Position numbers and translations under genes: made by a program. A stretch of DNA of 56,383 nucleotides from Halococcus hamelinensis 100A6 (lineage in GTDB: Archaea; Halobacteriota; Halobacteria; Halobacteriales; Halococcaceae), in the NCBI RefSeq assembly GCF_000336675.1, contig NZ_AOMB01000031.1, positions 36,720 to 93,102 of the forward strand, in the 5' to 3' direction. The notes under the pieces are model-generated. The model worked only from the letters and a program-made list of their open reading frames with translations. It was not told where the DNA came from and did no database searches. Of this stretch, positions 32,045 to 35,695 are shown in pieces. The stretch's first letter is position 1. Each line of letters opens with the position of its first letter.

Positions 32045-34288
32045 ATGACCGCCGACCTCGCGGCCGCGCTCCGCGACGAGGCACGCCGGGCGAACCAGCG
32101 TCGGCTCCTCGTGCTCGCGGGTGCGCACGAGGCGTGTCGCTCGGCGGCCCGCGAGGCCCTCGCCGGTGCCGGGATCGACGACGCCGCGACGACGCTGGTC
32201 GCCACTCGTGAGGGCGCAGCGCTCGGCTGCGAACGGGTCGCGCCGAAGAACGCCGACGCGCTCCTCGGGACCACCCGCGAGTGCGTGGTGCTCGACTGTC
32301 ACGACGAGTGCCGCCCGAACGCGCTCGGTCGCGCGGTGGGTGCGGTCGACGGCGGCGGGCTGTTCGTCCTCCTCACCCCGCCGCTCGACGACTGGCCGGA
32401 CCGACGGGACGGCTTCGACGCCACGCTCGCGGTGACGCCGTTCGACGCCGACGACGTGGCGGGGAACTTCAGAAGCCGCCTCGTGGAGACGCTCCGCACC
32501 CACCGCGGTATCGCCATCGTGGACGTCGATACCGGAACCGTCGAACGCGACGGCCGCACCGACCCGTCGCCACAATCTCCCGGATCCGCACCGTCGGTCC
32601 CCGTCGACAGCGAGTTCCCGCGCGCCGCCTACGAGGCGTGTCTGACCGCCGACCAGGCCGACTGTCTCGACGCGTTCGAGCGCCTCCGAACCCCCGGCAA
32701 CGCGCTGGTGGTCGAGGCCGACCGGGGTCGCGGGAAGTCGAGCGCCGCCGGACTCGCGGCCGGCGCGTTCGCCGCCGCCGGGCAGCGGGTCGTCGTGACC
32801 GCACCGGGCTTCGAGAGCGCCGGTGCGGTCTTCGAGCGTGCACGAAGTCTCCTCGGTTCGATCGATGCGCTCGCGGGGTCGGACCGCGACGACCGACCGC
32901 ACCGGGTCGACGCCGTGAGCGGCGGCCAGGTACGTTTCGAATCGCCGAGTGTCGCTGTCGAGAGCGCCGCCTCGGCCGACCTCGTCGTGGTCGACGAGGC
33001 CGCCGCCCTCCCCGTCGATCTCCTCGAGGGTTTCCTCGACACCCCGGCCGTCGCGTTCGTCACCACCGTCCACGGCTACGAGGGCGCGGGCCGCGGCTTC
33101 TCGGTCCGTTTTCGCGGCCGACTCGACGATTCCACCCTCGACGTCGCCGAGTCTCGGCTCGACGAGCCGATCAGGTACGCCGCGGGCGACCCGGTCGAGG
33201 TCTGGGCGTTCCGGGCGCTGTGTCTCGACGCGCGACCCCCGGTCGACCCGCTCGTCACCGACGCCACCCCGGGGACCGTGACGTACGAACGGCTGGATCC
33301 GAGGGGCCTGCTCGCGGACGAACACCGGCTCCGGGAGGCGTTCGGGCTGCTCGTCGCGGCCCACTACCGCACCGAACCGAACGACCTCGCGCGCCTGCTC
33401 GACGCGCCGAACGTCTCGGTGCACGTCCTGCTCCAGGAGGGCCACGTCGTCTCGGTCGCGTTGCTCGCACGCGAGGGCGGTCTCCCCGCCGACCGCCGCC
33501 GCGCGGTCTACGAGGGCAGCCGGATCAAAGGCCACCTCCTCCCGGACGTGCTCACGAGCCAGCTCCGCGACGAGGGGGCGGGGGTCACGGTGGGCCAGCG
33601 CGTGCTCCGGATCGCCACCCACGACGCGGCCCGCTCGCGCGGGCTCGGGTCGTGCCTCCTCGATTCGGTCCGCGAACGCATCGAGACCGACTGGCTCGGC
33701 GTTGGCTACGGCGCGACGCCGGAGCTGGTCGACTTCTGGCGGCGAAACGGCTTCTCGACGGTCTACCTCGCCACCACGCGCAACGAACGAAGCGGCGAAC
33801 ACTCCGTCCTGATGCTCGACCCGCTCACCGACGACGGGGAGGCCCTCCGCGACCGCCACGCGCAGTGGTTCGTCGAGCGGGTCGGCGGCACGCTCTCAGA
33901 CTCGCTTCGGGAACTCGACCCCGACATCGTCCGGGCCGTTCTCGCCGCTACCCCCACTACCGCCGACCACGACTGCTCGCCCTACGAGTGGCGGGTCGTC
34001 GCGAGCGCGGCCCACGGCCCCGGGCTCGCGAAGACCCATCCCCACGTCTTCCGGCGGGTCGCGCTCGCCCACCTCACCGACCCCGGGAGCACCGCGCTGT
34101 CGGCCCGCGAGGAGCGGCTGCTGGTGATGCGCGTCCTCCAGTCACGACCCACTTCGGTGATCGCCGCCGAACTCGGCTACGACTCCCAGCGGGAGTGCCT
34201 CCGCGGGCTCGGGGACGCCTACGAATCCCTGATCGAACGCTACGGCGACGAGGCGGCACGGGCCGAACGCGCCCGCTACGTCGACTGA
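32045..34288 (+). CDS. tmcA: tRNA(Met) cytidine acetyltransferase TmcA
   Basis: This 747-residue enzyme uses ATP and acetyl-CoA to make N4-acetylcytidine, classically at the wobble position of elongator tRNA(Met); archaeal homologues may act on further RNAs. Domains in order are an N-terminal module, an RNA helicase-like ATPase domain with Walker A ADRGRGKSS near residue 227 and the Walker B-like LVVVDEAAALP, a GNAT acetyltransferase domain (around RIATHDAARSRGLGSCLL), and a C-terminal helical RNA-binding part. Family signatures include TTVHGYEGAGRGFSVRF and GSRIKGHLLPDVL. The length is normal. The gene is monocistronic, divergent from a small membrane-protein gene. Confidence 0.95.
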   Translation: MTADLAAALRDEARRANQRRLLVLAGAHEACRSAAREALAGAGIDDAATTLVATREGAALGCERVAPKNADALLGTTRECVVLDCHDECRPNALGRAVGAVDGGGLFVLLTPPLDDWPDRRDGFDATLAVTPFDADDVAGNFRSRLVETLRTHRGIAIVDVDTGTVERDGRTDPSPQSPGSAPSVPVDSEFPRAAYEACLTADQADCLDAFERLRTPGNALVVEADRGRGKSSAAGLAAGAFAAAGQRVVVTAPGFESAGAVFERARSLLGSIDALAGSDRDDRPHRVDAVSGGQVRFESPSVAVESAASADLVVVDEAAALPVDLLEGFLDTPAVAFVTTVHGYEGAGRGFSVRFRGRLDDSTLDVAESRLDEPIRYAAGDPVEVWAFRALCLDARPPVDPLVTDATPGTVTYERLDPRGLLADEHRLREAFGLLVAAHYRTEPNDLARLLDAPNVSVHVLLQEGHVVSVALLAREGGLPADRRRAVYEGSRIKGHLLPDVLTSQLRDEGAGVTVGQRVLRIATHDAARSRGLGSCLLDSVRERIETDWLGVGYGATPELVDFWRRNGFSTVYLATTRNERSGEHSVLMLDPLTDDGEALRDRHAQWFVERVGGTLSDSLRELDPDIVRAVLAATPTTADHDCSPYEWRVVASAAHGPGLAKTHPHVFRRVALAHLTDPGSTALSAREERLLVMRVLQSRPTSVIAAELGYDSQRECLRGLGDAYESLIERYGDEAARAERARYVD

Positions 34289-34298
34289 GTCGTTCCGC

Positions 34299-34658
34299 TC
34301 AGCCGACGAGCTGGAGGAGGAGCCACGCCAGCCCGATCGCCCCGAGCGAGCCGACGAGGTTCGCGGCGGCGTTCGCGACGGCCCGGTCCCAGTCGTCGGC
34401 CTCGGCCAGCTGGAAGGTCTCGACCGAGAACGACGAGAAGGTCGTGAACGAGCCGCAGGCCCCGGTACCGACGAGGAGCGCGACGTCGCCGCCCACGCCG
34501 GCGAACGTCACCAGTCCGAGCACGAAGCTCCCGACGACGTTGACCGTGAGCGTCCCAAGCGGGTAGTTCGCGTTCAGCCGCTGGCCGACGTAGCTCCGAC
34601 AGAGCGCACCGATGGCCCCGCCGGTACCGACGAGGTGTGCGGGGTGGATGTCGATCAC
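34299..34658 (-). CDS. crcB: Fluoride channel subunit CrcB/Fluc (second gene)
   Basis: This 119-residue four-helix protein exports fluoride as half of a dual-topology channel. Fluc motifs are GGAIGALCRSYVGQ, GTLTVNVVGSFVLG and GSFTTFSSFSVE. The GTG at 34658 overlaps the TGA of the upstream crcB (GTGA), so the two are coupled. In organisms with two adjacent crcB genes the proteins form antiparallel heterodimers, unlike the single dual-topology homodimer; that is family knowledge. It is co-regulated with its partner by the fluoride riboswitch upstream. Confidence 0.92.
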   Translation of the reverse strand: MIDIHPAHLVGTGGAIGALCRSYVGQRLNANYPLGTLTVNVVGSFVLGLVTFAGVGGDVALLVGTGACGSFTTFSSFSVETFQLAEADDWDRAVANAAANLVGSLGAIGLAWLLLQLVG

Positions 34659-35056
34659 GCGCTCGCCCCCCGTTGGCCCGTCTCGACACGGCGGGCGAGC
34701 GCGCGGCCCGCGAACACGCCCGCGAAGCCGAGAACGTAGGTCGCGACGACGTTGCCGACCATCAGGAGCGGCGCGTCGAGGAGAACGGTTTGAACGCCGA
34801 ACGTGCTGTAGGTCGTGAGCGAGGAGAGAAAGCCCGTGGTGAGGACCAATTGCGTCCGTTCGGCGAGGATCCCCGTGTAGATGGCCTCGTAGAGGACGAA
34901 CCCGAGCACGAAACTCCCGAGGACGTTGACCGCGAGCGTCCCTACCGGTCCCGGGACCAGCGTGGCGACGAAGTATCTGCAGTTCGCGCCGGAGAAGCCG
35001 CCGATGGCGATCAGGACGACCGATTCGAGCGTTCGGAGCGGGTGGGTGTCGGGCAT
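34655..35056 (-). CDS. crcB: Fluoride channel subunit CrcB/Fluc (first gene)
   Basis: This 133-residue four-helix protein pairs with the next gene product. Motifs are GGFSGANCRYFVA, GTLAVNVLGSFVLG and GFLSSLTTYSTFGVQ, where the conserved Asn and the Thr/Ser/Phe residues line the fluoride path. The ATG lies only 12 nt after the end of the riboswitch core, close enough for fluoride to control translation initiation directly. The N-terminus MPDTHPLRTLESV differs from the second subunit, consistent with opposite membrane orientation; charge distribution would have to be analysed to prove this. Confidence 0.93.
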   Translation of the reverse strand: MPDTHPLRTLESVVLIAIGGFSGANCRYFVATLVPGPVGTLAVNVLGSFVLGFVLYEAIYTGILAERTQLVLTTGFLSSLTTYSTFGVQTVLLDAPLLMVGNVVATYVLGFAGVFAGRALARRVETGQRGASA

Positions 35057-35068
35057 GGCTGGCTGGAG

Positions 35069-35121
35069 AAGGAGTCATCAGCTGGAAACCCAGCGGTTGG
35101 GGCAGGCGGACTCCATCGCCC
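35069..35121 (-). promoter_or_regulatory. Fluoride riboswitch (crcB motif)
   Basis: Read on the minus strand, the leader of crcB contains GGGCGATGGAGTCCGCC, then AACCGCTGGGTTTCC, then AGCTGATGACTCC. These match the conserved parts of the crcB RNA motif: the GGCGATGG-GT-CGCC stem-loop, and the CTGATGACTCC segment that closes the pseudoknot and the fluoride pocket. The core starts at the predicted transcription start and ends 12 nt before the ATG. This placement leaves little room for a terminator, so translational control is the likely output. The downstream fluoride channel genes confirm the biological logic. Confidence 0.9.
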
Positions 35122-35144
35122 GATGAAGCCCCTGGGCGGCTGGC

Positions 35145-35153
35145 GCATTTAGG
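35145..35153 (-). promoter_or_regulatory. TATA box of riboswitch-crcB transcript
   Basis: On the minus strand CCTAAATGC lies about 26 nt before the 5' edge of the fluoride aptamer (near 35122). The aptamer would therefore occupy the very 5' end of the mRNA. Confidence 0.55.
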
Positions 35154-35212
35154 CGTTGAGGAACGTCGCGAGAGGTCGGTGGAGTTTACTCCCGTCGCCC
35201 GGGAGACCGAAC

Positions 35213-35695
35213 ATGGTCGAACCCCTCGCGCTGGTCGCCCTCGGGGTCCTCGTGCTCGCCGTCGTCGGCAGCCTCTTTCCCCTGATACCGGGCGCGCTCC
35301 TCTCGCTCGTCGGCGTCTACGGCTACTGGTACGCCACGGGCTACACCCAGCCCGGGCTCGCGCTGCTCGCCGCGCTCACCGTCATCGGCGTGCTCGCGTT
35401 CGTCGCCGACTACTTCTCGGGGGCCATCTCGGCTGCCGCCGGTGGCGGGTCGCTGGTGACGAGCGCCCTCGCCGGGGTCGTGGGGCTCGTCCTCTTCTTC
35501 CTCACCGGCCCGCTCGGACTCGTGGTCGGGGTCGTCGTCACCGTCTTCGCCGCCGAGTTCTACCGCCACGGCGACCCGATCCGGGGTGCCCGAACCGCCG
35601 CCTACACCGTGGTCGGGATGCTCACCTCGACGGTCGTCCAGTTCCTGTTGACCCTCACGATACTCGTGGCGATGCTCGCCGTGGCGTTTCTCTGA
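35213..35695 (+). CDS. DUF456 family membrane protein
   Basis: This 160-residue membrane protein with four to five helices has the DUF456 pattern: the GSLFPLIPGALLSLVGVYGYWY segment, then GVLAFVADYFSGAISAAAGGGS and the FFLTGPLGLVVG loop. The ATG at 35213 (MVEPLALV) was chosen because a TATA-like GAGTTTACTC lies about 27 nt upstream. The family is widespread in archaea and bacteria without assigned function. It is divergent from the fluoride channel operon, with no evident link to it. Confidence 0.85.
   Translation: MVEPLALVALGVLVLAVVGSLFPLIPGALLSLVGVYGYWYATGYTQPGLALLAALTVIGVLAFVADYFSGAISAAAGGGSLVTSALAGVVGLVLFFLTGPLGLVVGVVVTVFAAEFYRHGDPIRGARTAAYTVVGMLTSTVVQFLLTLTILVAMLAVAFL

Follow-up and report, generated by a model that had tools for sequence, protein, structure and literature searches.

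How might a fluoride-sensing RNA control a channel operon in a haloarchaeon, where mRNAs are mostly leaderless? The question is raised by the crcB1-crcB2 locus of Halococcus hamelinensis 100A6, which lies on a stretch of 56,383 nucleotides that was analysed as a whole and is referred to here as the window. The reading that we prefer, with a probability of roughly 0.6, is that the RF01734 leader of this locus acts as a translational ON switch by competition between the spacer and the aptamer, and that the CrcB pair downstream is probably an antiparallel heterodimer. The presence of a fluoride ON switch in the window is likely.

The original prediction had recognized all conserved blocks of the crcB RNA motif in the minus-strand leader and had named an Rfam covariance search as its check. 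In this search, RF01734 matched over its full length (model positions 1-64 of 64) at 35129-35062(-) with 49.3 bits, compared with a gathering score of 34 bits (E = 1.1e-10, computed in the 56-kb window), and the blocks were present as quoted. The fluoride aptamer was the sole Rfam family above threshold in the window, and a genome search with RF01734 returned only this one in Halococcus hamelinensis 100A6. The ligand-site residues A6, U7, G8, U38, A40, U41, and G42 and the linchpin U48 are complete, in a residue numbering that we take to follow the T. petrophila aptamer structure, and Watson-Crick pairing holds throughout the six-pair pseudoknot. The fluoride-locked state requires the A40-U48 linchpin (PMC8752731). 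Judged from its sequence, the identity of this element as a fluoride aptamer is certain, and it is an ordinary member of RF01734 (Table 1). Its end was originally placed 12 nt before the ATG; the distances to the ATG (35056) are 14 nt from the end of the pseudoknot 3' strand, 13 nt from the end of the core, and 5 nt from the end of the Rfam model.

Table 1. Coordinates of the features of the crcB1-crcB2 locus in the window.
Feature	Position	Strand	Evidence or remark
tmcA	32045-34288		convergent with the crcB unit, closes it
crcB2, 119-aa Fluc subunit, GTG start, TTFSSF box	34299..34658	-	PF02537 6e-26; TIGR00494 above cut-off
crcB1, 133-aa Fluc subunit, TTYSTF box (Tyr83, Phe86)	34655..35056	-	PF02537 2e-19; NF010820 above cut-off
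Spacer UUCUCCAGCCAGCC	35057..35070	-	CAGCC box at 35057-35061, adjacent to the ATG
Aptamer core, P1 to linchpin U48	35070..35121	-	RF01734 match 35062-35129, 49.3 bits
Pseudoknot 3' strand GACUCC (G42-C47)	35071..35076	-	six positions paired in 67/67 leaders, compensatory changes
P2 hairpin GCUGG/CCAGC	35081..35094	-	sequence and RF01734 alignment
P1 hairpin GGGCG (35121-35117)/CGCCU (35108-35104), loop holds the 5' pseudoknot strand	35104..35121	-	RF01734 alignment; pairs in 63-67/67 leaders
Pseudoknot 5' strand GGAGUC (G8-C13)	35109..35114	-	six positions paired in 67/67 leaders, compensatory changes
TATA-like box TAAAT	35147..35151	-	sequence; 31 nt before P1
DUF456 gene	35156-35695 as listed, ATG near 35213		divergent from the crcB unit

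The two genes are coupled, the start of crcB2 overlapping the stop of crcB1 by 4 nt (GTGA), and the genome holds no other crcB genes. Both proteins pass the curated NCBIfam CrcB models, match PF02537, and are similar to solved Fluc channels. The interval first assigned to the locus, 34655-35156, contains the aptamer and crcB1 as proposed; crcB2 (34299-34658) is represented in it by its first codon only.

The usual distance from a TATA box to the transcription start is about 26 nt, and, counted from the position of the TAAAT box, a start at about 35123 (+/-2), some 3 nt before P1, is therefore plausible. In the 30 non-Natrialbaceae leaders described below, the A/T content likewise peaks at -34 to -30 before P1. 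The crcB1-crcB2 mRNA would accordingly carry a leader of about 67 nt, consisting of the aptamer and the spacer and nearly nothing more, and would thus be leadered, not leaderless. The proposal that the aptamer occupies the extreme 5' end of the predicted mRNA is supported by the RF01734 match and by the A/T peak in the relatives; the description of the transcript as leaderless-type does not fit the inferred leader.

The arrangement had also been regarded as a one-off exception among haloarchaea, which is not the case: RF01734 matches were found in 66 of the 391 genomes of the haloarchaeal class, 34 of them above the cut-off, and in 31 of 86 genera, nearly all directly upstream of a crcB1-crcB2 pair. 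The 107 leaders assembled comprise 67 distinct ones, 37 of the Natrialbaceae type and 30 others; because these are related, the counts given here lack independence and the p-values come out too low. The six pseudoknot pairs are standard in 67/67 distinct leaders, with exchanges among A-U, G-C, and C-G at pair 10-45 and between U-A and C-G at pair 12-43, which is strong evidence of a selected RNA fold. A6, U7, G8, A40, and G42 are invariant, and U48 is present in 66/67. Residue U41 is replaced by C in 38 of the 67, 37 of which are of the Natrialbaceae type. The aptamer is also kept in seven other Halococcus genomes, where changes are limited to tolerated positions.

The Natrialbaceae aptamers (L035-L068 and others) combine U41C with a variable and often long P2, keep the other ligand-site residues, and mostly score below the Rfam cut-off, at about 25-39 bits. 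In the B. cereus riboswitch, U41A abolishes the response (PMC11077080). Upstream of crcB1 in L077, L084, L091, L102, L106, L108, and L116, the aptamer is degenerate, in some cases with U38C and U41C; these sequences suggest repeated loss of the switch with retention of crcB1. Two further aptamers are relics: that of L007 stands before a truncated crcB1, and that of L013 has no crcB after it. Halobaculum roseum and Halogeometricum pallidum each have a further fluoride aptamer about 415 nt upstream (L031:1254-1323, L032:1785-1854), which is followed by a small hydrophobic ORF of 68 aa (MGQQDT...). This ORF has no match in Pfam and may be a new gene related to fluoride. On the methanogen side, the genes downstream of fluoride aptamers in the relatives L173, L178, and L182 encode a member of a Na+/H+ exchanger family, prenyltransferase-like toroid proteins, and a dynamin-like GTPase.

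Between the aptamer and the start codon, the spacer is short, with a median of 15 nt from the pseudoknot to the ATG and 11-21 nt in 66/67 leaders. The Shine-Dalgarno motifs GGAGG and GAGGT each occur in 0/67 spacers, compared with 18/312 and 16/312 control gene starts, respectively, the control starts having been taken as the first ATG in each long open frame and not from annotated genes. The window spacer likewise contains no Shine-Dalgarno sequence, and a platform that masks such a sequence was rejected on these grounds. Many methanogen relatives in the same phylum, read by eye, have short spacers with SD-like GGAG or GAGG. The pentamer CAGCC, which is not SD-like and is the reverse complement of the P2 3' arm GGCUG, adjoins the ATG in 35/67 leaders, compared with 2/312 control starts.

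In addition, a helix of 5 bp with the aptamer 3' strand that touches the AUG was found in 32/37 Natrialbaceae-type leaders (control, 11%) and in 13/30 others (control, 8%). The longest competing helices reach 10 bp (L060), 9 bp (L048), and 8 bp (L002 and L125), and the competing stem of L004 takes in the AU of the start codon. The energy of the spacer/aptamer hairpin, calculated like all folding energies here under standard in vitro conditions (37 C) and not for the molar KCl of a cell, was lower than in 500/500 spacer shuffles and lower than with real control spacers. The base facing residue 41 is A where this residue is U (2/2) and G where it is C (12/17), so that U41C of the Natrialbaceae is matched in the competing strand in these 12 cases. 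Between the sister sequences L017 and L046, GAUGAC/GUCAUC is exchanged for GACGAC/GUCGUC. When spacers were swapped among the non-Natrialbaceae leaders, the energies were nearly equal (-8.1 with the own spacer and -7.9 with another), indicating weak lineage-specific covariation other than at position 41; as a result of the conserved aptamer strand, the swap does not discriminate outside the Natrialbaceae. Accessibility, modelled for locked versus free leaders, showed only a modest mean gain, from 0.45 to 0.56.

The mechanism that we propose runs as follows. Without fluoride, the spacer touching the start codon would pair with the P2 3' arm and the junction (GGCUGA(U/C)G), which make up the aptamer's 3' half. 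The resulting anti-aptamer hairpin would block ribosome access and at the same time break the aptamer. Fluoride would lock the aptamer and thereby free the start-codon side, and the CrcB1/CrcB2 heterodimer made from the mRNA would let fluoride out.

The best-studied bacterial fluoride riboswitches work by transcriptional control (PMC11077080, PMC13273304), and the haloarchaeal leaders could do the same if fluoride prevented termination immediately past the aptamer, whether by an intrinsic signal with a U-tract or by a factor. A U4 run after the pseudoknot in 7/67 leaders would agree with this. However, nearly all leaders leave only the 11-21 nt noted above for such a site, T5 runs occur in 0/67 leaders and T4 runs in 0/37 Natrialbaceae leaders, and the window spacer has no U-tract. 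A terminator-like site sought in the window was not found, nor was a hairpin with a U-tract that overlaps the aptamer 3' strand, and a terminator-type platform was rejected. Control by termination is therefore improbable. We regard as unlikely, though less so, a translational switch without a dedicated hairpin, in which the aptamer, once unlocked, would directly obstruct the ribosome together with its loose 3' end and CAGCC would be a conserved ribosome contact or start-context motif. The rarity of CAGCC before the ATG of control genes argues against such a motif, and spacers lacking CAGCC often carry other complements to the aptamer (GAGUCAU in L004, UCGUCAG in L005, and GUCAUC in L017). What speaks for it is the window itself, which has no competing helix above chance and retains CAGCC despite pairing over only 4 bp with the Halococcus P2 arm.

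For the window, this pairing (GCUG/CAGC) between the CAGCC box and the aptamer 3' strand is so short because the Halococcus P2 3' arm reads CAGCUG instead of GGCUG, and 32% of control starts equal it. In the minimum-free-energy fold, the 5'-end UCGGGCG pairs with UGCCCGA over the start codon; this helix of 7 bp is the best of the window leader anywhere, and 28% of controls match it. Both were rejected as the competing helix, being at chance level, and the whole window leader folds no better than its shuffles (z -0.19). In the Halococcus relatives L020, L022, and L027, codons 3-6 of crcB1 can form a 10-bp helix with the 5' pseudoknot strand; such a complement is rare in controls and is absent from the window. 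The weak pairing also bears on whether the window aptamer is a decaying relic that exerts no present regulation in Halococcus hamelinensis, for which the degenerate aptamers of the relatives offer a precedent. Against decay stand the intact ligand-site residues and pseudoknot pairs of the window and the restrained changes in the seven other Halococcus genomes, and we consider a relic very improbable. Under the spacer/aptamer competition that we prefer, the weakness of the 4-bp pairing suggests that the OFF state in the window may be another fold.

The original prediction derived an antiparallel heterodimer from the two coupled crcB genes, and the charges of the proteins agree with it. Positive charges lie on the termini and loop 2 in CrcB1 (mean bias +5.4) and on loops 1 and 3 in CrcB2 (-3.9); the bias is opposite in 37/38 pairs, and that of the window pair is +5 and -3. 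An opposite charge bias together with an antiparallel heterodimer has been described for La1/La2, likewise a tandem CrcB pair (PMC3755343). From this bias, CrcB1 and CrcB2 are probably the subunits of an antiparallel heterodimer through which fluoride exits. Unlike La1/La2-type Fluc proteins, haloarchaeal CrcB1 nearly always has Tyr at the first Phe-box position, TTYSTF replacing TTFSTF in 59/62 sequences, including that of the window. Each Fluc pore is built with one Phe from each subunit, and one dead and one active pore have been suggested for other Fluc heterodimers. In Fluc-Ec2, the equivalent change F80Y abolishes transport (PMC5636608). Since each pore shares Phe residues from both subunits, the pore formed by Tyr83 of CrcB1 and the second Phe of CrcB2 may be dead and the other active.

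In P1, P2, the pseudoknot, the ligand-site residues, and the position upstream of crcB, the haloarchaeal leaders resemble other members of RF01734 (crcB motif), from which they differ in having neither a terminator nor a Shine-Dalgarno sequence between the aptamer and the start codon. According to a 2021 paper (PMC8241225), the T. kodakarensis fluoride switch (Speed et al. 2018) is the one natural riboswitch of archaea to have been determined by experiment, and it is presumed there to be translational; it too is an archaeal fluoride aptamer with presumed translational control, but in another lineage, and it precedes TK0513, not crcB (PMC4247193). In the theophylline riboswitches of Haloferax volcanii, the start codon is likewise masked without ligand and freed by it; these are, however, synthetic, and the masked part includes a Shine-Dalgarno sequence (PMC8241225). 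A study of haloarchaeal transcription start sites termed control by structured leaders untypical for haloarchaea (PMC4983044). No description of a haloarchaeal fluoride-riboswitch group or platform was found in the literature searched, a limited collection.

The chances are about even that the leaders constitute an SD-free family of haloarchaeal translational riboswitches, in which an aptamer is joined to a start-touching spacer of about 15 nt that competes with P2, and which has been retuned by a fixed U41C change in the Natrialbaceae. The SD-free platform and the Natrialbaceae U41C could be the new parts. If this reading is true, the leaders would bring start-codon choice by haloarchaeal ribosomes on a leadered mRNA under the control of a ligand and provide a fluoride-inducible genetic tool for haloarchaea, and the natural U41C variant would probe to what extent the fluoride site is really needed.
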